This document shows, one piece after another, positions 28,939-54,432 of a stretch of DNA of 64,000 bases. The stretch's first letter is position 1. Every line of letters begins with the position of its first letter. Under the pieces are notes generated by a model. The model searched no databases. It was not told the origin of the DNA and was given only the letters and a program-made list of their open reading frames with translations. The DNA comes from an uncultured Oleispira sp. (GTDB lineage: Bacteria; Pseudomonadota; Gammaproteobacteria; Pseudomonadales; Oceanobacteraceae): NCBI GenBank assembly GCA_913019965.1, contig CAJVZR010000006.1, forward strand, positions 1-64,000, in the 5' to 3' direction. The position numbers were made by a program, and so were the translations under genes.

Positions 28939-30303
28939 ATGTTTGATCCTCTTGAATTCATTAATCGACATATAATATTTCCAATTTATTTCTGGAAAAA
29001 TGGTGATAAGCGCCTTAAGAGATTGCAAGAGTTAGAAGAACAACAGTACTTATCCCCCGAGTTATTGGCCAAACTACAGCTGGAAAAATTACAATACATT
29101 ATCCGTTATGCCTACCTACATACGGCTTACTATCGTCGTATTATGGATGAGCGAGGGTTGAAGCCTGAAGACATCAGGTGTTTGTCGGATATAGAGAAGC
29201 TTCCTATTTTAACGAAAAGTATTATTCAACAACATAGTGAAGAATTGCGATCGGACCAATATGAAGAATCTGAGCTTATTCAAGATGCTTCGGGCGGCTC
29301 GACGGGAGAACCGACCGTATTTTATAAAGACTATGCTCGGCATAATTTGCGTCGGGCTGATCAATTACGACATGATCGTTGGAGTGGTTGGAATATCGGC
29401 AAACGCAGTGCACTGATATGGGGAGCAAATCGAGATCTGAAATCATTTCAATCGTGGCGAGAGTTTATTATTACAAGGTACATTGCGCGTATTTGGGAAT
29501 TGGATGCGTTTGAATTGACCGAGAAAAAAATGTCGGAATTTGTCTCCATACTTGAAAGAGTAAAGCCAGTAATGATTCTTGGCTATGCAAATGCCTTAGG
29601 CCAGTTCTCTCGCTATGTCCTGAAAAATTACCCTGAACATACGATCAAGTTGAAAGGTATTATTTCATCCGCTGAAACCTTAACGCCAGAAAACAGAGCG
29701 AGTATAGAAAAAGCATTTTCATGCTCAGTGTACAACCGCTATGGATCTAGAGAGGTCGGTTTAATTGCCAGTGAATGTAAGCAACACCAAGGACTACATA
29801 TCAATGCGGATAATATATTGTTGGAAATTGTAGAGGGTAATCACAGTATTGAAAGAGGCAAGACAGGCAATATTGTGGTGACAGACTTTAGCAATAAAGG
29901 GATGCCCTTGATTCGTTATCAGTTAGGGGATAGGGGGGCGCTAGCAGTAGAGTCTTGTAGATGCGCTATTAATTTACCTCTATTAGAGCGCATTGAAGGA
30001 AGGAGTAGCGACTTCATACTCAATAAGTCTGGTAAATTAATCCATGGTGAATATTTCACGCATTTATTTTATGGCTTGCAAGAGATAAAGAAATTCCAGC
30101 TCATACAGCATAGTCTTGATACGCTTGAATTGAAATTAGTGGCTATTGAAAATGACAGTATCAATCAAGCTTTAAAAAATATTAAAGATAAAATACGGAA
30201 AATAATGGAAGACGACGTCGATATAGATGTCAGTTTTTTAACGGACATTGCACCAAGCCCATCCGGGAAGTTTCTATTCACGCTTTCCAAAATACATAGT
30301 TAG
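28939..30303 (+). CDS. PaaK/CapK-like adenylate-forming protein (phenylacetate-CoA ligase family)
   Basis: DASGGSTGEPTVFYKD, SSAETLTPENRASIEKAFSCSVYNRYGSREVGLIASEC. Confidence 0.9.
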   Translation: MFDPLEFINRHIIFPIYFWKNGDKRLKRLQELEEQQYLSPELLAKLQLEKLQYIIRYAYLHTAYYRRIMDERGLKPEDIRCLSDIEKLPILTKSIIQQHSEELRSDQYEESELIQDASGGSTGEPTVFYKDYARHNLRRADQLRHDRWSGWNIGKRSALIWGANRDLKSFQSWREFIITRYIARIWELDAFELTEKKMSEFVSILERVKPVMILGYANALGQFSRYVLKNYPEHTIKLKGIISSAETLTPENRASIEKAFSCSVYNRYGSREVGLIASECKQHQGLHINADNILLEIVEGNHSIERGKTGNIVVTDFSNKGMPLIRYQLGDRGALAVESCRCAINLPLLERIEGRSSDFILNKSGKLIHGEYFTHLFYGLQEIKKFQLIQHSLDTLELKLVAIENDSINQALKNIKDKIRKIMEDDVDIDVSFLTDIAPSPSGKFLFTLSKIHS

Positions 30304-39848: not shown

Positions 39849-40952
39849 TTATCGTTTTTGGACTTTTCCATTGAAGAGTATTGACATGAATGGGAGTTTA
39901 CAAATCAATCCATTATGTATGACGATTGTGCTAGCAAAAGTCATTATGATGACGAGTATAAACTTGATAAATATAGGTATAGCTAAGGGGATGACTAAGA
40001 TTGAAAAAGCAATAACGAGAACATGATGGAAAAGGTAAATGGTATAGGATGCATCTGATAAATATTGAAAGAGTTTTAAGGGTGAATTGGTTAACTGATG
40101 AAACAGGATGAAGCATAGATAGCAAAGTAACCAGGTTGAGAAAGAGTCGACGACTAACTGTATTCTTGCTAGCCAGTGGTTCTCAGTGATTACCCCTAAT
40201 GGATTAAGACTTACAAGCATTCCAATGACGAAGCAAGAGATCCCGAGTGTAGGAAAGCTAATGTGAGTAAAGTTCGATAACAGCTTAGGATGTCGAGCTG
40301 TCAAGATTCCGAAGTAGAAGTAGATTGAGTACTTAATGCTCTCAGAGATTTGCCAATCAAATTCTAAGTTCATAATGTGTAAACTGAATATATGGCTGGC
40401 TTTGATTAAGACTAAAGAAATTAAAGGTAATAGAATAATAGAAAAGTGCTTGGAAGATAGTAAACACTGTGAACTGAACGTTAGAAGTCTATCTGATACT
40501 TTAGGAAACAGAATTTTAACAACCGTGCTCAATAATAAGAAATAAATTAATGCTATAAGAAACCATAAGTGAGATACCCAGTTTCCCTCAAGCCAGTATT
40601 CTAGACTGAGTATTTCCATCTCTATTGTACGATAATCATTTAGTATAATATTTTGTAGTGTATTGAGTGTGATCGCCGTTATTATGAGTGGCAGTAATAT
40701 TCGGCTAGCTTTCTGCTTTATAAAAACAGAACTACTAACACGGCTTAACATGAGGTGACAGAAAAATCCTGAGATAATGAAAAAAGCCGGCATTCTAAAA
40801 AGATGAATGACGTGAACCAGATGATTGTAGAAAACAGAGCCTTCGTCTGGCTGTAGCCAAGAATTTGTACTATAAACAACCGCCGTATGCAGCACGACTC
40901 CCAACATCATGAGTATACTTCGCATAGCATCTAGGAAGTGGAAACGCTGCAT
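39849..40952 (-). CDS. Acyltransferase family 3 membrane protein (O-acetyltransferase)
   Basis: FLDAMRSILMMLGVVLHTAVVYS ... YLSDASYTIYLFHHVLVI; start set at ATG 40952 (MQRFHFLDAMRS) rather than the longer ORF to 41072. Confidence 0.88.
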   Translation of the reverse strand: MQRFHFLDAMRSILMMLGVVLHTAVVYSTNSWLQPDEGSVFYNHLVHVIHLFRMPAFFIISGFFCHLMLSRVSSSVFIKQKASRILLPLIITAITLNTLQNIILNDYRTIEMEILSLEYWLEGNWVSHLWFLIALIYFLLLSTVVKILFPKVSDRLLTFSSQCLLSSKHFSIILLPLISLVLIKASHIFSLHIMNLEFDWQISESIKYSIYFYFGILTARHPKLLSNFTHISFPTLGISCFVIGMLVSLNPLGVITENHWLARIQLVVDSFSTWLLCYLCFILFHQLTNSPLKLFQYLSDASYTIYLFHHVLVIAFSILVIPLAIPIFIKFILVIIMTFASTIVIHNGLICKLPFMSILFNGKVQKR

Positions 40953-40953
40953 A

Positions 40954-41778
40954 TTATGACTCCTCATTGTGAGGCTTTGCTTTATCGCGTGATTTACTTT
41001 TTGATAATAACCAATGCCATAGTTCAGGATTTTTATAAGTTTCTTGCCACGCGTAATGACCTTCTTTCTCATAGAGAGTGATTTTGTGCTCTCCTCCTTT
41101 TTCTACTAACGCTTGGTGCCAAACTTCGCTACGCCATACCTCTACGACCTCGTCTGCCCTATTGTGAAAAAACCAACTAGGCAACGAAGCCATTGAATGA
41201 TTGGGTTGCCATAATTTGGGGGACCTAATCGCAGGTGCTATCGGCACGATAGCGGCTAGATTATCGGAATGAACTGTTGCATAGCGAATTGTTAAACCAC
41301 CGCCGGCACTGAACCCAGTCATATAAACTCGATCAGGATCATAGTGCCCTCGATAGCGCCTAAATATATAATCAACAAAGGGGCTTACATCTGCAGTTTT
41401 CCAGTCTGTCATCATGGCGGAAATGATAATCGTGCTAAAGTCTTGACCCTGATTTATTAATTGCGGTAAGCCTTGGGTTAATAGCTTTTTTAGCTCTTCT
41501 TGGCCATTGCCAGTGATCGCATTAGAGCCATTCCAATAGAATATCAGCGCTATTTCATCGCTATTTTCGGTGAACTCATTGGGTAAATATTCATAATAGC
41601 CATATACATTACCTTCCGTATCTTGATAAACCGCCGTGTGTTCACCCGCTTGCCCGCTAGGACCAAGAATGATTTGAGAGTTAACTTGTTCAGCATCATG
41701 AGAAGAATCGCTCATGATGCAGGCACTTAAGTTCAAGTAGAGCAATACTGTTAATAAGCAATACTTTAAGTTTTGCAT
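40954..41778 (-). CDS. Alpha/beta hydrolase lipoprotein (PHB depolymerase/esterase-like)
   Basis: Start at MQNLKYCLLTVLLYLNLSACIMSD (lipobox LSAC); nucleophile elbow GFSAGGG; late His (EKEGHYAWQETY). Confidence 0.8.
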   Translation of the reverse strand: MQNLKYCLLTVLLYLNLSACIMSDSSHDAEQVNSQIILGPSGQAGEHTAVYQDTEGNVYGYYEYLPNEFTENSDEIALIFYWNGSNAITGNGQEELKKLLTQGLPQLINQGQDFSTIIISAMMTDWKTADVSPFVDYIFRRYRGHYDPDRVYMTGFSAGGGLTIRYATVHSDNLAAIVPIAPAIRSPKLWQPNHSMASLPSWFFHNRADEVVEVWRSEVWHQALVEKGGEHKITLYEKEGHYAWQETYKNPELWHWLLSKSKSRDKAKPHNEES

Positions 41779-41779
41779 A

Positions 41780-42370
41780 TTATTTCCATGCTTCCATATT
41801 ATGATATTTAGTGCAGATGGCATCGAATTGTATTTGTTGGTCAGCTAGATAACATTTGTAGCGTTCAATATCTTCCTGTCGGCCCTGTAACTCGGGTGAT
41901 ACTAAACACAGTTTAAGACCGGCTTCTTTTAATAAATGATAAGAAGTTGTATTGATTGGAAGTTGATTAAAGCAATCGACCCAAACCCAATCGACTTTAT
42001 CAGCCATTAGTAAAACGGTTTCAATACTTTCTATTTCTGAAAAGCGAACAGCCGACCTTTTTTCTCCTAGCTTACTGAGTAAGTAGATCATAGGTATAGA
42101 GCTATCAAGAAAAAAGTAATCTTCAATTTTATGTTCTTCCAATAGCTCAAGAACTCTATGCTCAATACGCTCGCTTTTAATATTCAAAATCATCGTGCCA
42201 TGTTGGTAGCACTTCAAATACTCTGAAAAAAGCTCACCCTCGGTGAAAGGGTCATGTTGTAAGATCAGCTCATTACCTGAATCTCTTAAATCGAGCTCTA
42301 CTCCATATTCGTGGGGTAACTGCTTTAATTCGTTGAGGGTATTAATTCGATGAGCAATGAAATGAGTCAT
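41780..42370 (-). CDS. GDPD/PI-PLC-like phosphodiesterase domain protein
   Basis: FIAHRINTLNELKQLPHEYGVELDLRDSGNELILQHDPF resembles the GDPD HR...E.D...H layout. Confidence 0.65.
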   Translation of the reverse strand: MTHFIAHRINTLNELKQLPHEYGVELDLRDSGNELILQHDPFTEGELFSEYLKCYQHGTMILNIKSERIEHRVLELLEEHKIEDYFFLDSSIPMIYLLSKLGEKRSAVRFSEIESIETVLLMADKVDWVWVDCFNQLPINTTSYHLLKEAGLKLCLVSPELQGRQEDIERYKCYLADQQIQFDAICTKYHNMEAWK

Positions 42371-43083
42371 TTTATTAGCCCTCTTTTTAGGTTTGTAGAG
42401 AAGAGTATCGTTCTTTTAATGAATTTCCATTTACCGAGTAGGCTAGTATTCCAGCTAGATTGACCATGAATTCGGTCAGGAAAATAAACTTCAAAGCGTA
42501 TGATATTGAGCTTTTCCAAATTTGCTTGATAGAGGACAAATAGGTCCAATGAAAAGTCATCTGGTGCCTTAGATTTCCATTTATCAAAAAAAGAACGATG
42601 GAAAATATTCGGTTGAGCATTGATGTCCCATAAACGAGTCGCCAGATACAGTGTTTCAAATAGGCTCATGCCCATTGTAAAAATTTGATCAAATAACGGT
42701 CTGCCTTTACGATCCCCTTTGATATAACAGCGATTAGTTTCTTTCTGTTCCTGCAATAGATGAAAAGCCTTGATGACGTCGCTAGGGTCAGTCTGTAAAT
42801 CAGCATGTGTCCAGCCCAAACAGTCCGCTTTTGCTTGTCTTAGTCCTGCCATAATTCCATAGCCGTAACCCTGATTTATTTTAATATCGACTACTGTAAT
42901 GAATAGGTATTGCTGCTGGTATTTAGCTAATATTTCTGCACTGAGGTCATTGGAACCATTATTGACGATGACTAGTTCGATCGGTTGATCATCAATAACA
43001 CGAGCAAATCGAGTGATTAACTCTGGAATATTTTCTGCTTCGTTATAGCACGGCACAACAATGGATAAATCAGGCTTATTCAT
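42367..43083 (-). CDS. Glycosyltransferase family 2 (GtrB/DPM-like, no C-terminal TM)
   Basis: LSIVVPCYNEAENIPELITRFARV ... GYGYGIMAGLRQAKADCLGWTHADLQTDPSDV; start set at ATG 43083 (MNKPDLS). Confidence 0.88.
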   Translation of the reverse strand: MNKPDLSIVVPCYNEAENIPELITRFARVIDDQPIELVIVNNGSNDLSAEILAKYQQQYLFITVVDIKINQGYGYGIMAGLRQAKADCLGWTHADLQTDPSDVIKAFHLLQEQKETNRCYIKGDRKGRPLFDQIFTMGMSLFETLYLATRLWDINAQPNIFHRSFFDKWKSKAPDDFSLDLFVLYQANLEKLNIIRFEVYFPDRIHGQSSWNTSLLGKWKFIKRTILFSTNLKRGLIK

Positions 43084-44815
43084 GTGTGGGCACCTCATTA
43101 TTACGGTAGATGTAGGCAGTTGATTTTTCCCCTTGGCTTTCTCCAATTAAGGTAAAATACGTGGGATCAATAAAAGCCTGTGTTCTTATTAAGATTTGAG
43201 CTTGGTACTTATCGAGCAATAGGTTTGATGTCGATTCTGACAAGCTATCGATATGACCTCGCGCGGTATCTCTATGCCCGTAGAGGTCGGTATAGCGCTG
43301 ATACCATTGACGATAGAATAATTCATTAAACGGGAAATCTTTGCTAATAACGATGGCTCGTCGAGCCAATAAGCGAACCTTCTGATTATTGGCTGCGTTC
43401 AGTTCTGTAACGATTATATCTTCAGTATGTGTATTTTGGCTTAGCCATTGGTATATATTAGGACTATTTTCAAAGGTAGGAATATTAATGTTGAAACGAA
43501 AGATGGCGAGAATTACCGCTAATACGGTAATCGGTAACATATAAACTGCGATTGAGCCTGAATGAAATAATTTCTTTAAATTTTTATCAATTAGGCGGAA
43601 AGAAATTTTATTAAAATGCTCCATTAATATGATTGAAGCTACTAATAGTATTAGTGCGATTGGTAATACCAGCTCATGGTGATTAGGTAGTAAATACCAA
43701 GTAAGACCAACATGGTTATAGGGCAGGAATGGAATAAATAATAAAAAGAAAATGCAAAAATTCTCCTTTTTCCAATGGTAATGCGCTAATCGTGCAACGG
43801 CCAATATGATGATAGGAACAATAATCGGAAAACTTCGCATTGGAATAAAAGACACCATAAAGCGGACAGGGACTAACTCAACGAATAGATAATTCATAAC
43901 CATCATCATTATTGAATATAGGATGATCACATAAGTGATTTTTTTTATTATCGTTGACTTACCTCGATCTAAATACTCAGCAATTGCGATGGTGATGATA
44001 AGCATGAGTAAGGTTGATATCCATTTTTCTATCTCCATATGGCTGAAAATGAAATGGTGACCATGACGGAATAGAGCATTAATATCAATAAACTCTTGGT
44101 CAGGTAGTATTTGTTGATAGGAAAGGTAGTTATAGAAAAATGCTACCGAAAATAAAAGCGCAAAAGGATAGATAGATAACGTTTTAAATAACTTTATAAA
44201 TTCTGAAAAAGAATTGCTTGATATAAATAATATGATGCTGATGATAAAGGCATGAATACCGACTACTGGGTGGATAAATACGGAAAGGGCTAAAAACGTT
44301 AATGAAATATGGATGTTATTTTTTAGTACTGTGGCCCATGAAAACATCGCGAACGTGAGCGCAATATTTGAACTGGTCAAGTCATATGTGATTGGCCACC
44401 AAGCTGGTAGGAAAGGTATGGATAAAAAGGAAAGAGCCGATAGGGTAAAGGCAATTATTGCAATGGATCTCCCTGCTAGATTTAAGAAAAATAAGTATAA
44501 GCCTATTCCATAAAGCCAAATTCGAACGATATTGGCAAAAGCAACAATATACGGATAGTCAATATTGAATAGCTTGCTTAGCCCTATAATGATATTAGCC
44601 GAGACCAATCTGGGGGAAAACTCGCTGAAGGTATTTGTGAAGAAATCTTTGGCTAGATAGTTCGGGTCAAGCAATCGTTCAATAAGTGGAAAGCTATCGA
44701 TTACCGGATATTGCCATGCCACTTGATAAAATAATCCCATAAATATTAAGGATAAAATAAATGATAGCAACCCCCAGTTATCGGTGAAATATTTTGCCAA
44801 CATGTTATTTGCCAC
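43076..44815 (-). CDS. Large multi-TM membrane protein, GT-C glycosyltransferase-like
   Basis: 579 aa, about 11-13 hydrophobic helices plus a C-terminal soluble segment (YQWLSQNTHTEDIIVTELNAANNQKVRLLARRAIVISKDFPF). Confidence 0.65.
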   Translation of the reverse strand: MANNMLAKYFTDNWGLLSFILSLIFMGLFYQVAWQYPVIDSFPLIERLLDPNYLAKDFFTNTFSEFSPRLVSANIIIGLSKLFNIDYPYIVAFANIVRIWLYGIGLYLFFLNLAGRSIAIIAFTLSALSFLSIPFLPAWWPITYDLTSSNIALTFAMFSWATVLKNNIHISLTFLALSVFIHPVVGIHAFIISIILFISSNSFSEFIKLFKTLSIYPFALLFSVAFFYNYLSYQQILPDQEFIDINALFRHGHHFIFSHMEIEKWISTLLMLIITIAIAEYLDRGKSTIIKKITYVIILYSIMMMVMNYLFVELVPVRFMVSFIPMRSFPIIVPIIILAVARLAHYHWKKENFCIFFLLFIPFLPYNHVGLTWYLLPNHHELVLPIALILLVASIILMEHFNKISFRLIDKNLKKLFHSGSIAVYMLPITVLAVILAIFRFNINIPTFENSPNIYQWLSQNTHTEDIIVTELNAANNQKVRLLARRAIVISKDFPFNELFYRQWYQRYTDLYGHRDTARGHIDSLSESTSNLLLDKYQAQILIRTQAFIDPTYFTLIGESQGEKSTAYIYRNNEVPTHE

Positions 44816-45209
44816 CCCGCGCAGTTGTAGGGTTAAAAACCCAGAATTTCATGCCGATAAAATTGAGCACCGTACTCGCGGATGTGGCAATGAGGAATGC
44901 AACGGTTTTTAATTCTGATATATAAATAAGAGAAAAGTGATTCAGCGTCACATTTACAATGAGAGTACTGGCATAAAGACTAATAAAAGGAAGGATTGCG
45001 CTGATTGCTTTCTTTTCATACTCGAATGTCCAAAACTTATTGAGTATAAAGGCGACACTCGCTCCCAGTGTAAAACTTATCCCTTTTGCTATATCTATTG
45101 TTATGAAATGACTGAGTAAAAGATAACTGCAATAATCTGTGAATACCGCTAAGATCCCAGTGACTAAGAATTTTGGGATTTCTTTCTTCGTCGAGTTTAG
45201 GTCTGTCAT
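44805..45209 (-). CDS. GtrA family membrane protein
   Basis: 134 aa, 4 TM: FLVTGILAVFTDYCSYLLLSHF ... LGASVAFILNKFWTFEYEKKA ... FIGMKFWVF. Confidence 0.9.
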   Translation of the reverse strand: MTDLNSTKKEIPKFLVTGILAVFTDYCSYLLLSHFITIDIAKGISFTLGASVAFILNKFWTFEYEKKAISAILPFISLYASTLIVNVTLNHFSLIYISELKTVAFLIATSASTVLNFIGMKFWVFNPTTARGGK

Positions 45210-45213
45210 AGGC

Positions 45214-46869
45214 TTACCGATACTCCTGAGAGAAGGCTGAAGTCTGTGCTATCAAATCTTCAATGTTTTTTGTATCAGCCGTGGTGTCTTTTTCAATACG
45301 GTAGGGATGATTAGTATCTTTATGAAAATAACTCTGCCAATAGATAAAGGTTTCGTAATCATCTGGGGTTCCCCAACCGATATAATTATCCACTTCAAAT
45401 ACGGCAATGCGATAATCTAGTTCGACGAGAATGCCAATGAGGCTATCGACATAGAATTCATTATTTATTCGGATATTTCTTTCTTGTAACAAGGCTAATG
45501 CCTGGTTAAATAACGCGGTTCTTCGAAAGTAAAAGGTTCCGACAATGGCATGATCATTATCTGGCTTGTCTGAAATGGCCTTTTTTACACTGACCCCAGT
45601 TGCCATGGTTATACCATTGACGAGCTTGGTATTTATCCAGCCATACATTTGCGGATTATTGCGGGCAGAAGGATGTCCTCTGAAGGTCCAAACGATGGCA
45701 TCGACATTTGGGTTGTTAATAAGTTTCGAGTACTCAACGTGATCCCATAACATGCCATTATCGCAAGCGGCAATGAGCAATGGAGAAGATTCTTCTGCAT
45801 CTTCTAAGCCTCTATGACAGGTGATCGCTTGCCCTTCGCTGACTTTTTCAATTGTGATGATCTTAGCGTCAACTTGTTCAGACTGTATTATTTCGTCGAT
45901 ATGGTAGGTTTTGACATGATTATCTAAGCAGACATAGCGATTTAACTCACTGCAGGGCAGTTGATTATTCGCTTGTAGAATCATGGCTTTACCACTGACG
46001 GGCAATAATGGTTTGGGAAGTTGATAGCCCTTATCACGAAACCGACTACCGTGGCCAGCCAAAGGAATTAAGGTGGTACTGTTTGCTTCAGCTAGCCAAG
46101 GCTTAATGGGCTCAATTAACTTGCGGAAATACTGCGACCAGCTAGTATATTCTTCGACGTCTTGTGGGGTTCCCCACTGCAGCATATGCTGAATATTATA
46201 AATGGATACCGTTAGTTTATCGGCAACCAATAAGTTGTAGATTAAACTGACGTAGAATTCGCCATTCAGATCAATATTTTGTTTTTGAAGTAATGGGAAA
46301 TACTTCTTGATGAGACTGCCTTTACGAAAATAATAAGTGCCATTAGATGCATACTCATTCATTCGATTATTGGTAAAGGGTTCCTTTTCTTTGATTTCTA
46401 ACATCCACTGATCTTGATCACGTAAGAAGGCATAGTTTGTTGTGCCTAACATATGTGGGTGAAAATCTTTATAAGCGACAATTGCGCCATCGGCCTGACG
46501 GTTACGTGTATGTTGAAGAAAATCTTGGTAATTCCAGTAAGTGCCAAAGTCACAATAATTAACGATCACTTCTTCATCATCTTGGATAAGCTCTAATATT
46601 TGTGATACTGCAAATACTGGCCCTTTCTTGTGATTGGGAATACTGACAATATTCCCACTGGGCATTAATTGAGTTAGTAGAGAACGCATCTGGGTATTGG
46701 CTAAATGTGTTTGGTTGCAGATGAACGTAAATTTGGTTTCCCCTGGGAAAAGTTCAATCACGTGCTGAATGATTGTTTTACCATCAATCTCGATTAATGG
46801 TTTTGGATCTTGATAACCGGCATCAATAAAACGTTGGCCGACTCCCGACATGGGAATAATTATATGCAT
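45214..46869 (-). CDS. Tandem double nucleotidyltransferase-domain protein
   Basis: Two NTP-transferase signatures in one ORF: MHIIIPMSGVGQRFIDAGYQDPKPLIEIDGKTIIQHV and TTLIPLAGHGSRFRDKGYQLPKPLLPVSGKAMILQA; start at ATG 46869. Confidence 0.85.
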   Translation of the reverse strand: MHIIIPMSGVGQRFIDAGYQDPKPLIEIDGKTIIQHVIELFPGETKFTFICNQTHLANTQMRSLLTQLMPSGNIVSIPNHKKGPVFAVSQILELIQDDEEVIVNYCDFGTYWNYQDFLQHTRNRQADGAIVAYKDFHPHMLGTTNYAFLRDQDQWMLEIKEKEPFTNNRMNEYASNGTYYFRKGSLIKKYFPLLQKQNIDLNGEFYVSLIYNLLVADKLTVSIYNIQHMLQWGTPQDVEEYTSWSQYFRKLIEPIKPWLAEANSTTLIPLAGHGSRFRDKGYQLPKPLLPVSGKAMILQANNQLPCSELNRYVCLDNHVKTYHIDEIIQSEQVDAKIITIEKVSEGQAITCHRGLEDAEESSPLLIAACDNGMLWDHVEYSKLINNPNVDAIVWTFRGHPSARNNPQMYGWINTKLVNGITMATGVSVKKAISDKPDNDHAIVGTFYFRRTALFNQALALLQERNIRINNEFYVDSLIGILVELDYRIAVFEVDNYIGWGTPDDYETFIYWQSYFHKDTNHPYRIEKDTTADTKNIEDLIAQTSAFSQEYR

Positions 46870-46870
46870 A

Positions 46871-47962
46871 TCAAACCCCTTGACGATATTTTTCAGCATC
46901 CCAATTTGATAAGTAGGCAACTTCATCCATGGTTAGCCTTTGAATATTGTCGTTTGAATGTTGTCTTACCAATAAATGAAACTTGAATAGGTCCTGTGTA
47001 TCTTTGGCTTTTTTTAGACTCGCCGCACAGAAATATACAGTGTGATCAACTACGAGTATTTTGGGCACATCGTGAAAGCGTTTTTGATAGTTTTCTAACG
47101 CTGCTTTATCCTCAATAGATGTCATAAAGACAGGATGCACACCGCAATAGATCAAGGTGTCTGGACAAAAAGGCCAGATGGTAACTGCTTGATCCTCTTT
47201 ACTTAATGCACACGAGATGACTTGGTCATCATTGCATAGACATTTAATATGGCTTTGGCCAAGCTCATTAAACAGTTGCTGTAATTGTGTGGTACGGCGA
47301 TAGCGAGTTAGGTTTATTCCTAGATACTGTTCAAATTTTATTGTTACAGTTTCTGTTAGTTCAATGACTTCTTCGTGAGTTGATGCCGATACAATCAAGC
47401 CATGATTCTGTAAGAAAATAATACTAGGACTTTGTGTATATTTTGCTTGATAGAGGTCGAGCTGTTGCACTAATGCTAACGCTAAATCTATACCCGGTGT
47501 CTGGTAGGGAACACATACCGATTCTGGCCAAAGCTCGTTCAGGATTACTTGCCAGTCTTGGGAGGCGGTTATTATGTTGATCGCAATAGGATGGGTATGA
47601 AGGGTATAGGTATTGAGTAATGCATGTAAGAACGTCTCGATGGAGGGCTTGCCTGATGAAGAGCAGAGACTTTCTTTCATGAGTTGTTCTGCACTTTTCT
47701 CACGCTGTTTTTTATCTAGCTGGCTGTACTCTTCAGAAGCTAGGTTCGAGCGAATAGACGAATAATCAACACTCACATACCCTGACTCACTAGAAACTTC
47801 AGATAAGCTAATACCTGATGCTTTAATCAGCATGTTAGTTTGGTCAAGCTTGACTGAAGAGTTGCCACCACCCGCTTGAACAAGATCAAAGCGATTGCCT
47901 GCATACGCTGATATAAGCTCAAGTCGCTTTTCTGAAGATAATTTTTTCTCCGCTGTTACCAT
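46871..47962 (-). CDS. Class II aldolase/adducin family protein
   Basis: LVQAGGGNSSVKLDQTNMLIKASGISLSEV, HTHPIAINI, FLQNHGLIVSASTHEEVIELTETV. Confidence 0.88.
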   Translation of the reverse strand: MVTAEKKLSSEKRLELISAYAGNRFDLVQAGGGNSSVKLDQTNMLIKASGISLSEVSSESGYVSVDYSSIRSNLASEEYSQLDKKQREKSAEQLMKESLCSSSGKPSIETFLHALLNTYTLHTHPIAINIITASQDWQVILNELWPESVCVPYQTPGIDLALALVQQLDLYQAKYTQSPSIIFLQNHGLIVSASTHEEVIELTETVTIKFEQYLGINLTRYRRTTQLQQLFNELGQSHIKCLCNDDQVISCALSKEDQAVTIWPFCPDTLIYCGVHPVFMTSIEDKAALENYQKRFHDVPKILVVDHTVYFCAASLKKAKDTQDLFKFHLLVRQHSNDNIQRLTMDEVAYLSNWDAEKYRQGV

Positions 47963-48618
47963 TGAATATCTCCTAAGCTATTGATCGTAGTGACCCCGTC
48001 TTCTTGCTCAGCACTTTCCGTTAACCAATAGGCGTGTATGCCTAACTGCCTTGCTCCGATAATATCCTTTTGGTAGTTATCACCAATCATGCAAACCTGA
48101 TCCGACTGAAGATTTAGCTTGCGCAACGCTAGTTCAAAGATGAAGGGGTGGGGTTTTTCACATCCGGCCTCTTCGCTTGTGACGATAAAATTGGCCCAAT
48201 TCATTAGCTCTAAGCAAGCTGCTTTTTTATGTTGTATTTCAGCGGTCAAGTCCGTAACAAGGCATATGGGGAGATGCTTATAACGATTAAGAAAATCTTT
48301 CGAGTCTTGAGGCAGAACTAACGCTTGTAGAAAATGGTCCCAATAGACCTTTTCTAATATGAGGCTATGAGTTAATGCATCCACCGACAGTAATTCACAG
48401 GTGCGTTGGGCATACAATAAGCGACTATGAGAAGCAGCAGTTCCCGATAATGTATTTTTAACGATCAATTTAGCACTGGCGACAGCTTGTTTTATCTCGG
48501 CGGTAGTGCGATCAGATATTTCTGACAAATAGGAAAGTTGTTTATCGGCAGCTAACTCATGCAGTGCTTGATAGGGATATAGCGTATTATCAATATCTAA
48601 TAAGATACCTTTAAACAT
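47956..48618 (-). CDS. HAD family hydrolase
   Basis: GILLDIDNTLYPY (DxD motif), VTDLTAEIQHKKA, MIGDNYQKDIIGARQLGIHAYWL. Confidence 0.92.
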   Translation of the reverse strand: MFKGILLDIDNTLYPYQALHELAADKQLSYLSEISDRTTAEIKQAVASAKLIVKNTLSGTAASHSRLLYAQRTCELLSVDALTHSLILEKVYWDHFLQALVLPQDSKDFLNRYKHLPICLVTDLTAEIQHKKAACLELMNWANFIVTSEEAGCEKPHPFIFELALRKLNLQSDQVCMIGDNYQKDIIGARQLGIHAYWLTESAEQEDGVTTINSLGDIQW

Positions 48619-50677
48619 TCTTGCTGCTCCTATCTTTCATTATCTCGCTGATTGCATAAATAATGAGGAATTGAATAATGCCTGCGTAGCCTGCTTGCCA
48701 ACTGGGTTTGTCAATGAGTTCAGAAGCATTGGTGATGTAGGTGCTGACGAACCAATTCATATCTAGATTTTTAGGTTCTTGGTTAAACCTCAATAGTTGA
48801 TGACTTAGGTCTTCAGAATAATCCCAGCTAAGATCACAGCCATTATTTTGAAAGGCCTGTATTAAACGATCTAAAGGAATACTCGCATTCATTTCGATGG
48901 CTAAACCCAGTCTTCCGTTGTATTGATGGTCCTGGAATAGATCGGGTTCTGCGGGAAAAATTGAAACAATAAGATCACAGAATTTTTTCTGTGGGTGGAT
49001 GTAGCGGGAGGAATCCGATTGTCTTTTATCAAGAGAGGCAATGACCTGCTCAGGTGTATAACCCCTTTCATGACAATCTCTTTTAATTTTCCAGCTCGAT
49101 CTTAAGCGTTCGTCAAGATCTAAGAAAATTTTGAAGTCGATAATCTTCCTCATTTTAGGAAGATAGAAAGGGTGTAATCCAGCCAGTACAACGAAGTTTC
49201 TCGATCTTATGGTATCGAGCTCAGTAAATTTACCGGTACCATGGTTGTAATCCGAGCGCCTAATCGATTTTCGGTTCTTTAGCAGTTGCACCTGATCCGC
49301 TTGCTTGTGTAACGCGTTAGCCTTTGGATCTAGATGGGTGTACTCCTGCCAGTGTTCATTATCTCGTTCCCACTTGTGATCACTGTCTCCTTCAAGCTCT
49401 AATAATTGTTTATTAAATAAAGATTTAAGTTGGTGGATCAAGGTGCTTTTACCTGAGCCACTATCCCCACCGATGCCAATAATAAATGATTGCTGGCGTT
49501 CATAAGTATTATTACTTTGGATGCCGGCTCTATAAAACTGGTAGATGGTCGCTAATAAAATGGCCTGTAATAGCGTAAAGACAATGTTATTGAGGGGAAG
49601 GGATGAGTTAGCCAAACTGAAAGTGATTTCTTCACCCAAGAGAATCAGTTTTGAATAATCGTATTGGAAAAATAGCACATAATAAATGAGATAAAATAAC
49701 ACTAAAATGCTGTATAAAAAGTAGTGTTGATAGCCATCAAAATAACGAATATAAAAAATTGTGATAAAGGGCATCATCCAGATATACCAACCGGGAGATG
49801 CTTCGATCAGTAATAGAAAGGTGGAAAAAAGAACGCCTAAAGTTGCATTTAATAAGTCTTGATTAATCTTTTGATAACTACTAAATCTCAAATAGATGAC
49901 AGCAGAAACCAGTAACGGTAAATAGACTTCGACACTGCCGATCGAAAACGAAGAAGAAAATATCATGCTCTGCTTTTGATTCTGAACGACCTTGTCCCAA
50001 TAGCTTGAGCTTTCTATTAGATAGGGAAGAGACAGTAGGAAAAACATCGAGATAGGAATTAACAGCATCCAGACGGTTTCTTTATATTTTCCTTGATGAA
50101 AAAGATAAATGATTAAGATAGGTAATGCGGCAATCGTATGAAATTTTGTTGAAATAGCACATCCCACAAGGATTGCAGCATAGAAATATTGGTAGCGTGA
50201 TAAGAGAAAGATACTGACAAACAATAATGCGGTTGGAATGATGTCTAATTGGCCATGCATGTAGGTTGAGTACATGATGATGGGGGAGCAGATGTAAAAG
50301 AAAAATATCTCTGTCTTATGCCAAAGATACATGCGGATCAAAACCGCGGTGATTGCTAGATCAGAAAGCAGTAAGGGTAAACCGTACAATAATGATAATA
50401 GCAGCGAGTAGATAGGCGATGTTGGATCGATGAACTGAATGGGAGACAAAGCGATGGACAGTATATAAAGCATCAGAGGTGGATAAGGGAAGGCTTCGTG
50501 TACTGTATGGCGATATTCCCAAGGGTTTCCACCATGCTCTAAATAAGAGGTGACGAATGGGAAGAAGAGTGTTTCTTGATAGCCTGATGAAAACAGCAAT
50601 AACAAAGCGATTTTGGCCACTATTACGAGACCAAAAGCCGTTTTGAATTTACTTGAGAATGTAATCTCTTGCTGCAT
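48611..50677 (-). CDS. Fusion of a multi-TM GT-C-like membrane domain with a uridine kinase/phosphoribulokinase-like P-loop domain
   Basis: N-terminal about 390 aa multi-TM; C-terminal FIIGIGGDSGSGKSTLIHQLKSLFNKQLLELEGDSDHKWERDNEHWQEYTHLDPKANAL ... FVVLAGLHPFYLPKMRKIIDFKIFLDLDERLR. Confidence 0.8.
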   Translation of the reverse strand: MQQEITFSSKFKTAFGLVIVAKIALLLLFSSGYQETLFFPFVTSYLEHGGNPWEYRHTVHEAFPYPPLMLYILSIALSPIQFIDPTSPIYSLLLSLLYGLPLLLSDLAITAVLIRMYLWHKTEIFFFYICSPIIMYSTYMHGQLDIIPTALLFVSIFLLSRYQYFYAAILVGCAISTKFHTIAALPILIIYLFHQGKYKETVWMLLIPISMFFLLSLPYLIESSSYWDKVVQNQKQSMIFSSSFSIGSVEVYLPLLVSAVIYLRFSSYQKINQDLLNATLGVLFSTFLLLIEASPGWYIWMMPFITIFYIRYFDGYQHYFLYSILVLFYLIYYVLFFQYDYSKLILLGEEITFSLANSSLPLNNIVFTLLQAILLATIYQFYRAGIQSNNTYERQQSFIIGIGGDSGSGKSTLIHQLKSLFNKQLLELEGDSDHKWERDNEHWQEYTHLDPKANALHKQADQVQLLKNRKSIRRSDYNHGTGKFTELDTIRSRNFVVLAGLHPFYLPKMRKIIDFKIFLDLDERLRSSWKIKRDCHERGYTPEQVIASLDKRQSDSSRYIHPQKKFCDLIVSIFPAEPDLFQDHQYNGRLGLAIEMNASIPLDRLIQAFQNNGCDLSWDYSEDLSHQLLRFNQEPKNLDMNWFVSTYITNASELIDKPSWQAGYAGIIQFLIIYAISEIMKDRSSKNV

Positions 50678-51889: not shown

Positions 51890-54154
51890 TTAATAAACAA
51901 GGTTTTCATCTTTATCATTACACGTGCCTTGCTGGCAGTCGGCATTTACCCGAACACCGCCCTCGCGGCCAGGTTCATCCCCCGCTCCAGGTACAACCGA
52001 TAAGCTAGCTGAAAAAGATGCTATAAAATCATCGCTTTGCACTAGAGCAACACCCGCATCACCACCTTGAGTATCAAAAGTAGTAATTTCATCGGGAGTA
52101 GCGTCCCCGCCGTTTAGGCTAATACTACCAGCAACTGAGTTCTCCATAGAAGCAAGGCTATAGAAGCTACCGGCGTGACCCGCACGCTCAATTCCATCAC
52201 CGCCATTTGCGGAAATTGCACCGGAATAGTTCACACTGCCTTCTAGACTAGAAAAGCCGACAGAACCGGCATCTTTACCTTGATTATATAAGTCATCTTC
52301 ATCTTCTTGCTCAGTATCGCTACCGCCGTTGATACTAATGTCACCACTAATCGTTACACCATGGGCCGCTTTCACAAGGACTTTGCTAGTAGAGCCTGGT
52401 ATACCATTGTTAACATCACCAGCATTAGCGCTGATGTTGCCCGCTAGCTGTATTTTAAGAGCACCTGGCTGGAGAAATGGTTGAGCATGGGTGATGATGA
52501 GTTCAACACCTCCACCATTTCCGCCACGAGCAGCACTTTCAGAAGCCGATGGGATAGACGTTCCTGCATTGGCACTTATATCGGTTTCAACCACCATTGG
52601 GCCAGCTAATGGTTTCTCGATTAGGCTGCCGGTATAGTTATTGATACTAACATCACCCGCATTACCCGCTTGAAGGCCATTGCCACCATCAACGATCAAG
52701 TTTTTATAGCCTGCTAGGTAAGTAGGTAAAGCATGGGCCGAATGAGATTGATGAGTTATGTATATATTACCCGCATCACCCGCATCACTACCTTGAGTAA
52801 TGCTTTGATCTTGTTCGTCTTCTACGTAGTTTTGGCTTGAATCACCACCGTTGGCAGACAAGTTACCAGATATGATAACTAAAGATTCACTAGCGACATT
52901 CGAGTCATCATTACCGGTTGCATAAATAATAATATCACCACCTTGGCCTGCTTCTTGGGAAGTTTCGGTGGTCGCGGTATTACCGCCATTAGCAGTAAGG
53001 TTACCGGTATTGATTAAGCGACGATTATTACTCTTAGTTGCACTACCTGAAATTAGGGATAAGTGAATATTACCTGCATCCGTTGCATATCCATCTTCAA
53101 GGGCATCTGCGCCATTTACACTGAGATTAGCAATATTGATCAAGACTTCTTCTGCAATAATCTCGATTTTTTGAGTTGAATCTTGGTCGCTATTATTATC
53201 GCCTTCATTCGCGATGGCAGTGATTAGGCCTGAATTATAAACTTCATCCGCTCGTAGGCTTACTGATCCCGCAAGACCTGCTAAACCGCTAAGTGCTTCA
53301 CCACCTGAGGTATTAATATTGCCTGTATTTTCTAGGAAGGTACTGGTAAATAAGGAAATAGAACCACCTTGGCCTCCATTTACATCACCACTATCTTCTC
53401 CATCAGCACCAATAGCGGATAACTTGCCAGAATTATTTAGAGTGTATGCGGAAATACTAATGTCCCCAGCGCCCTGACCTGCATGCTCGCCGTCTGTGAT
53501 GATATCGCCACTGCCAGAATAAGCCGCTGGATAAAGGCTAATAGAGGTACGCTTATTACGTGCGTTCCATTCAGTATTAGAGACGTAAGTTGAAATGGTG
53601 CCGTTATTTACTAAGTCATTAGCAAATAATAACTCAATGTTATAATCACTTTCAGCTTCAAGAGTTAGAGTTATACCAGCTTCGATAACCAAACCTGTAA
53701 TTTCATTATTCCGAGCTTCAAAATCACTTTCACCGTCATATTGGTAAAGACGGTTTTTACCTTCAGCCATGTAGATCGTACCGGAAGGGGTATTGCTAGT
53801 AATGCGATCAACAGTCTCTACCTCAGTATCTTCAGTGATAGTAACCGCTAACGAACCTAGGTTTACATTAGTCTCGGGCAATTGATAACTTGTATCTGCA
53901 ATGCCAGCTGTCTGAATATTCAGCGCAGCAGGGCTATTGCTTTGTGTGATTTCAATATCACCGCCATTACCGCCTTCTCGAGAGGCAGAGTTGCCACCTA
54001 TCGCAGAAATCGTAGCATTGCCTTCTGTTTGACTAGAAAAACCAACCTGGCTGATGACTTCGTTATTTGAGCTCTTAGAATCACCGCCGCAAGCGGTTAA
54101 TAAAATTGCAGTGGCTAGAATACTGGCTTGGAATGGTGCCTTAGTAATTATCAT
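51890..54154 (-). CDS. Large surface lipoprotein with glycine-rich beta-solenoid-type repeats
   Basis: Start at MIITKAPFQASILATAILLTACGGDSKSS (lipobox LTAC); many degenerate repeats of type NTGNLTANGGN...GQGGDI.I / NAGDVSI / SGDISINGGSD. Confidence 0.7.
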   Translation of the reverse strand: MIITKAPFQASILATAILLTACGGDSKSSNNEVISQVGFSSQTEGNATISAIGGNSASREGGNGGDIEITQSNSPAALNIQTAGIADTSYQLPETNVNLGSLAVTITEDTEVETVDRITSNTPSGTIYMAEGKNRLYQYDGESDFEARNNEITGLVIEAGITLTLEAESDYNIELLFANDLVNNGTISTYVSNTEWNARNKRTSISLYPAAYSGSGDIITDGEHAGQGAGDISISAYTLNNSGKLSAIGADGEDSGDVNGGQGGSISLFTSTFLENTGNINTSGGEALSGLAGLAGSVSLRADEVYNSGLITAIANEGDNNSDQDSTQKIEIIAEEVLINIANLSVNGADALEDGYATDAGNIHLSLISGSATKSNNRRLINTGNLTANGGNTATTETSQEAGQGGDIIIYATGNDDSNVASESLVIISGNLSANGGDSSQNYVEDEQDQSITQGSDAGDAGNIYITHQSHSAHALPTYLAGYKNLIVDGGNGLQAGNAGDVSINNYTGSLIEKPLAGPMVVETDISANAGTSIPSASESAARGGNGGGVELIITHAQPFLQPGALKIQLAGNISANAGDVNNGIPGSTSKVLVKAAHGVTISGDISINGGSDTEQEDEDDLYNQGKDAGSVGFSSLEGSVNYSGAISANGGDGIERAGHAGSFYSLASMENSVAGSISLNGGDATPDEITTFDTQGGDAGVALVQSDDFIASFSASLSVVPGAGDEPGREGGVRVNADCQQGTCNDKDENLVY

Positions 54155-54432
54155 GACGTTCCTTGTTTGATAATGGGGATTAATACCGGCGGCTAGATTA
54201 GAGCGAAGCATTAGGGAAGTAAATTGGTTAAGCCTGAATCTCATGATTAGGAATGACGTGTTTACTCAATTATTAATCTAAACTCAGCTTTTATTATCGG
54301 TAAAATCAATTTTTCGCCATATTCTGATACAGAATGTGTGGAAAAATTTTAATCCCTTACAAAATGCCGCTATAATCCGCGCCAGAAATTTAAAATACAC
54401 GGATTAACCGTGATAGCTGAGAGGACTTTTCT

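Follow-up and report, generated by a model that had tools for sequence, protein, structure and literature searches.

A putative mobile glycan-decoration cassette with a phosphoribulokinase-like domain fused to a predicted membrane glycosyltransferase in an uncultured Oleispira sp.

A cluster of eight genes was analysed in a 64,000-nt stretch of contig CAJVZR010000006.1 from an uncultured Oleispira sp. (GCA_913019965.1), hereafter the window, in whose numbering coordinates are given. The cluster lies on the minus strand, from 50677 down to 41780, and encodes, in this order, a fusion of a GT-C-type membrane protein with a phosphoribulokinase (PRK)-like kinase, a HAD phosphatase, a class II aldolase, a tandem nucleotidyltransferase (NT), a GtrA family protein, a DUF6798 membrane protein, a GT2 glycosyltransferase and a GDPD-like phosphodiesterase. 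The first-pass annotation had described eight tightly packed genes on one strand, and all eight open reading frames (ORFs) were verified. Neighbouring genes abut when internal Met or start codons are used; the listed starts of the NT, the GT2 and two downstream genes for an esterase and an acyltransferase, described below, are probably too early, as their ORFs overlap neighbours by 44 to 119 bases.

The first gene of the cassette (48611..50677) encodes a 688-amino acid (aa) protein with a PRK Pfam match of 125 bits (3.3e-36), and homologous fusions are found in GT-C-type loci. Its kinase domain (residues 397-577, 48947..49489) matches PRKs of the Protein Data Bank (PDB) with an E-value of 3e-39. 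According to Pfam and the PDB comparison, it belongs to the PRK/uridine kinase type and not to the GHMP-type sugar kinases. Alignment with 6gve and 6hzk indicated that Walker A and the residues binding ribulose-5-phosphate (Ru5P) are kept (D, H, R, Y, H, K and R). In PRK, Ru5P or its phosphate is contacted by His, Arg, Tyr, His, Lys and Arg residues (PMC5241800), which are invariant in 17 of 17 aligned kinase domains. No match to RuBisCO (PF00016) was obtained in the window's genome, which is about 94% complete, and among 16 cassette genomes tested only one, G341, has this enzyme.

The membrane half of the fusion (residues 1-390, 49508..50677) has about nine predicted transmembrane (TM) helices. 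Predicted with AlphaFold2 from four sequences (pLDDT 63, pTM 0.69), it models as a GT-C fold, as the first-pass annotation had proposed. The top Foldseek matches were PimE, GPI mannosyltransferase I, PIG-U and ArnT, with ALG6 close behind (best match E 1.4e-3, probability 1.00), and most of the matches are polyprenyl- or dolichyl-phosphate-sugar enzymes. The GT87 Pfam model scored 20.2 on the fusion, below its cut-off of 25. The GT-C fold is thus common to this half and to the mycobacterial polyprenyl-phosphate-mannose GT87 enzymes such as PimE, but the cassette protein is fused to a kinase, stands in another gene context and reaches a TM-score of just 0.56.

Three further genes encode proteins potentially involved in sugar transfer. 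The GtrA family protein (44805..45209; PF04138, 62 bits, 6.2e-17) is a putative polyprenyl-phosphate-sugar flippase, and the DUF6798 protein (43076..44815; PF20604, 2.8e-8), a second polytopic membrane protein with about 12 TM helices, is a putative GT-C transferase. The GT2 (42367..43146, likely start Met22 at 43083; PF00535, 85 bits, 6.2e-24) had been labelled GtrB-like. GtrB, however, is a GT2 that is about 300 aa long and carries two TM helices at its C-terminus, whereas the cassette GT2 measures 237-259 aa, has no predicted membrane helix and is closer to DPM synthase. The combination of GtrA, a DPM-synthase-like GT2 and GT-C enzymes implies an undecaprenyl-phosphate-linked sugar. Since this type of GT2 and the GT-C enzymes would need an anomeric donor, the alditol moiety suggested at first pass is less likely than a true sugar. 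PMT_2-type proteins are present in the L020, L027 and L056 cassettes.

The other four families are soluble enzymes. The HAD phosphatase (47956..48618; Pfam HAD, 65 bits) has the haloarchaeal ribulose-1,5-bisphosphate (RuBP) phosphatase NF053830 as its nearest curated family. The aldolase (46871..47962; PF00596, 63 bits, 5.7e-17) is of the FucA/RhaD type with a C-terminal extension; its phosphate-site motifs (GN-S, SG and PS), the catalytic Glu and the three His that bind metal do not vary among 15 homologues. The tandem NT (45214..46926, likely start Met20 at 46869) contains two NTP_transferase stretches according to Pfam, and by comparison with sugar NTs both domains retain the nucleotide-binding and metal residues. 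In the NT tree, the N domains form one clade and the C domains another, over all cassette types, which indicates that the fusion is old and that the two domains probably have different roles. The GDPD-like protein (41780..42370) had no Pfam match and did not reach the PF03009 cut-off. Its family aligned end-to-end with true GDPDs over 189 columns (HHalign 91%, E 1.2e-6; unrelated controls below 1%), with the HR, E-x-D and HD catalytic motifs in register and H7, R8, E25, D27, H39 and K65 invariant. Together with its co-occurrence with the tandem NT, this bears out the GDPD-like label for what appears to be a distant phosphodiesterase of the superfamily. A single-sequence structure model (pLDDT 56) was too poor and was not used.

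Co-conservation, on which the proposal of a joint function had been staked, was found in the neighbourhood comparison: seven cassette families were repeatedly found side by side in genomes of Campylobacterota, Bacteroidota, Bacillota, Alpha- and Gammaproteobacteria, as well as on two E. coli plasmids. The tandem NT itself is rare: it is present in 4 of 369 class-sample genomes and 5 of 399 phylum-sample genomes (the window's own genome excluded from both), and in 10 of 298 genomes of the Campylobacteria sample. Of the seven phylum-sample genomes with a GDPD-like protein, six also have the tandem NT, and no further genome of that sample does (p about 1e-12; 7e-11 when the window's genome is left out). 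The kinase fusion is always accompanied by the HAD enzyme and the tandem NT, and almost always also by the aldolase, GtrA, GT2 and GDPD-like protein, in varying gene orders. Cassettes of this kind occur in Poseidonibacter, a Bacteroidia metagenome-assembled genome, Cohnella, several Gammaproteobacteria, and Azospirillum and Hirschia plasmids; in one genome (G454) the cassette is divided between two contigs. In the copy of Cohnella ginsengisoli (Bacillota; L023 6267-13323) several reading frames are broken, and it is probably decaying. The window NT groups with those of Campylobacterota and Bacteroidia, apart from the other gammaproteobacterial copies, and this NT was absent from the genus relatives searched, which together point to horizontal transfer.

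The cassette is horizontally mobile. A near-identical copy of 8,963 bases lies on two E. coli plasmids, namely NZ_CP145712.1, an IncR plasmid from human stool in Bern, and NZ_JCAPUP010000005.1, from a frog farm in China (L082 6022-14984; L089 3774-12736). It carries genes for the NT, GtrA, GT2, GDPD-like protein, GT-C/kinase fusion, HAD enzyme, aldolase and a 587-aa membrane protein. On NZ_JCAPUP010000005.1, identically oriented IS26 copies flank it on both sides, and an AIDA-repeat pseudogene lies next to it. Prevalence in E. coli was 2 of 5426 genomes. No polysaccharide backbone genes were found beside the cassette on either plasmid, so that it presumably acts on something that the host makes.

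The soluble enzymes also occur on their own. In seven Campylobacteria loci, genes for the GDPD-like protein, HAD enzyme, kinase, aldolase and tandem NT are clustered, and those for GtrA, GT2 and GT-C proteins are lacking; HAD and kinase are fused in six of these and split in one. Reading of the sequences indicated that one locus (L060) is followed by KpsC- and KpsS-like genes. A HAD/phosphoribulokinase protein is also listed for the C. coli 76339 capsule locus (PMC3928612). Cyanophages S-SM2 and Bellamy (L086 8001-12060; L087 8004-12093), which infect RuBP-making hosts, carry a tandem NT, a class II aldolase, a short GDPD-like protein and a GT61 protein in a sugar cluster, with no kinase. Their GDPD-like form was recognised by reading the loci, tblastn with the GDPD-like protein having given no match in phages. 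The soluble enzymes are thus a separable donor-making module, able to feed different transfer routes.

Taken together, these features make it probable that the genes form a self-contained mobile cassette for glycan decoration, in which the soluble genes make a sugar donor and the membrane genes transfer the sugar to an envelope glycan. The retained Ru5P-binding residues, the similarity of the HAD enzyme to RuBP phosphatase and the retained aldolase residues suggest a route through Ru5P, RuBP and ribulose-1-phosphate (Ru1P) that feeds the NTs. The kinase would phosphorylate a 5-phosphopentulose, most likely Ru5P, to the 1,5-bisphosphate; the HAD enzyme would strip the 5-phosphate to give a pentulose-1-phosphate, which the aldolase may rearrange or epimerise. 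The tandem NT, aided by the GDPD-like enzyme, would then yield a nucleoside diphosphate (NDP)-sugar. GT2 would load the sugar onto undecaprenyl phosphate, GtrA would flip the product, and the two GT-C proteins would attach the sugar to an envelope glycan outside the cytoplasmic membrane. In the window, the acceptor is probably the glycan of a neighbouring XrtA/PEP-CTERM polysaccharide locus. Every substrate, every product and the acceptor we infer; what was observed is the gene content and its co-conservation, the occurrence of the soluble module on its own, the conservation of active sites, the GT-C fold of the fusion and mobility.

At first pass, the genes had been proposed to form a dedicated system for the synthesis and NDP activation of an unusual small moiety and for its Gtr-like, undecaprenyl-linked transfer. 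The co-conservation, the soluble-only Campylobacteria loci and the plasmid unit all support this proposal. The invariant Ru5P residues, the likeness of the HAD enzyme, the lack of RuBisCO, the kinase-less cyanophage sets in RuBP-making hosts and a GT-C fold near polyprenyl-phosphate-sugar enzymes also argue for the glycan-decoration reading. Several observations weigh against it. In place of the PRK Walker-B Glu, the window's kinase has Ala, and the majority of the GT-C-fused kinases have Ala, Ser or Asn; the Glu is retained in the Campylobacteria and L019 kinases. The kinase scores 198.6 bits against a curated PRK cut-off of 236 (NF005655), and the HAD enzyme 129 bits against a cut-off of 330 for NF053830, which is still its best family. 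One locus (L022) retains only the fusion, HAD enzyme and NT; another (L053) has a divergent tandem NT without an adjacent kinase and without RuBisCO in its genome. L022 and G419 fall outside the simplest scheme. The idea that RuBisCO might replace an absent kinase fits G341 and the cyanophage hosts, not G419, and is suggestive only. In G341 itself (L024 10070-13139), a close tandem NT stands with a beta-PGM-like HAD enzyme and a further NT, with no kinase nearby.

An aldolase acting after RuBP could equally mean cleavage, with Ru5P converted through RuBP and Ru1P to dihydroxyacetone phosphate (DHAP) and glycolaldehyde as in haloarchaea, followed by activation of a C2 or C3 unit to an NDP-alcohol for transfer. 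Such a scheme agrees with the final steps of the haloarchaeal non-carboxylating pentose bisphosphate pathway (PMC9700705), which has a similar phosphatase and aldolase pair, and the cassette aldolase retains the catalytic Glu and a DHAP-type phosphate site. That pathway is catabolic, however, whereas the cassette pairs these enzymes with NTs and lipid-carrier enzymes and stays below the family cut-offs, the Ru1P aldolase model giving only 11 bits. As DHAP is already abundant, glycolaldehyde has no phosphate for the NT and a DPM-like GT2 requires an anomeric donor, we regard cleavage as quite improbable. Heptose-type logic, with a pentose-5-phosphate phosphorylated by the kinase at its anomeric position, stripped of its 5-phosphate by the HAD enzyme and turned into an NDP-pentofuranose by the NT, would repeat the order of HddA, GmhB and HddC in GDP-heptose synthesis (bisphosphate, dephosphorylation, nucleotidyl transfer). 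The HAD-kinase fusion in Campylobacteria, the retained phosphate-binding residues of the kinase and a product activated at the anomeric carbon, as GT2 and GT-C enzymes need, are in line with it. It is nonetheless unlikely, since PRK and uridine kinases act on primary hydroxyls, ribose-5-phosphate is not used by M. hungatei PRK (PMC5241800), and the aldolase, second NT domain and GDPD-like enzyme, additional to the heptose set, would have no job; the cassette kinase is also PRK-type, not GHMP-type. A chance or purely historical cluster without joint function might be considered because the genes lie in a polysaccharide island, where gene exchange is common, but the same set recurs in reshuffled orders across phyla and alone on plasmids, and the two NT domains, N and C, diverged in parallel; co-conservation already contradicts this explanation, which is highly improbable.

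Within the glycan-decoration reading, the product could be an anomerically activated ketofuranose such as a pentulofuranose, a proposal that we consider rather doubtful. One NT domain would form an NDP-1-pentulose, the GDPD-like enzyme would release nucleoside monophosphate by way of the 2-OH to give a 1,2-cyclic phosphate and then the 2-phosphate, and the other NT domain would make an NDP-2-ketose for GT2. Such a series of steps would account for the joint occurrence of two NT domains and a GDPD-like enzyme. Bacterial polysaccharides do contain xylulose and fructose (PMC8707391, PMC7901785), and no description of their donor pathways was found in the open-access literature; if true, the proposal would provide a dedicated route to ketose donors. 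Xylulose as the product was considered by genotype and rejected: in the paper on L-xylulose in Y. enterocolitica O:10, there is no mention of a nucleotidyltransferase, a phosphoribulokinase, an aldolase or a hydrolase (PMC11380512). For C. jejuni HS:41, L-arabinofuranose derives from UDP-L-arabinose via other genes (PMC12369002), and fructose in HS:1 is assigned to HS1.08, outside the cassette families (PMC7901785). The first-pass annotation had not matched the cassette to a named pathway, and none was found in the open-access literature.

Among the closest known arrangements is Gtr O-antigen glucosylation (GtrA/GtrB/Gtr), which shares a GtrA flippase, a GT2 and a GT-C-type transferase and is likewise a mobile stand-alone unit acting on a host surface glycan, as the cassette would. 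Gtr systems lie on prophages, whereas the cassette is found on plasmids and genomic islands, has two GT-C proteins, one of them kinase-fused, and carries its own donor biosynthesis (kinase, HAD enzyme, aldolase, tandem NT and GDPD-like enzyme); it appears to behave as a Gtr system equipped with a donor pathway of its own. With Calvin-cycle and archaeal PRKs it shares a P-loop kinase with the full Ru5P-binding set, but here the kinase is fused to GT-C or HAD, lies below the family cut-off, has mostly lost the Walker-B Glu and comes without RuBisCO. A PRK-type enzyme, otherwise a hallmark of CO2 fixation, would be placed in surface-glycan biosynthesis and fused directly to a membrane glycosyltransferase. 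As a complete set of eight adjacent genes is present on an E. coli plasmid, this chemistry can be tested directly in a laboratory strain. The core is shared with capsule loci of Campylobacteria and with cyanophages, which connects the cassette with capsule diversity and phage biology.

Other cassettes, which lack kinase and aldolase (L028, L029, L031, L032, L080, L085), combine a beta-PGM-like HAD enzyme with one NT or with two, the latter fused in L085, and frequently with a GDPD-like protein. Those of L028, L029 and L031 were considered as orthologues and rejected, because their two NTs form a clade of their own outside the N and C clades; they are cousins. Used as queries against E. coli, the cousin cassettes gave no match.

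The eight genes of the first-pass annotation are real, but the operon runs on beyond them on the same strand. It continues with an esterase/depolymerase-like alpha/beta hydrolase, a probable lipoprotein (LSAC; 40954..41823, likely start Met16 at 41778), which is an operon member outside the conserved core, and then with an Acyl_transf_3 (MdoC-like) membrane acyltransferase (39849..41072). The Poseidonibacter cassette contains another Acyl_transf_3 gene. Insertion of the cassette at tRNA-Arg was considered and dropped, as a second copy of the tRNA-Arg 3' end was not found in the window. The XrtA/PEP-CTERM exopolysaccharide locus adjoining the cassette (16843-37313) encodes EpsB_2, a chain-length determinant, an ATPase, an amidotransferase and an O-ligase-like protein, and includes an AMP-dependent CoA-ligase-like protein of the DVU_1553/PaaK type (28939-30303). 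Upstream of the cassette, a glycine-rich repetitive secreted protein of 784 aa (51890-54244, minus strand) is a possible surface partner.

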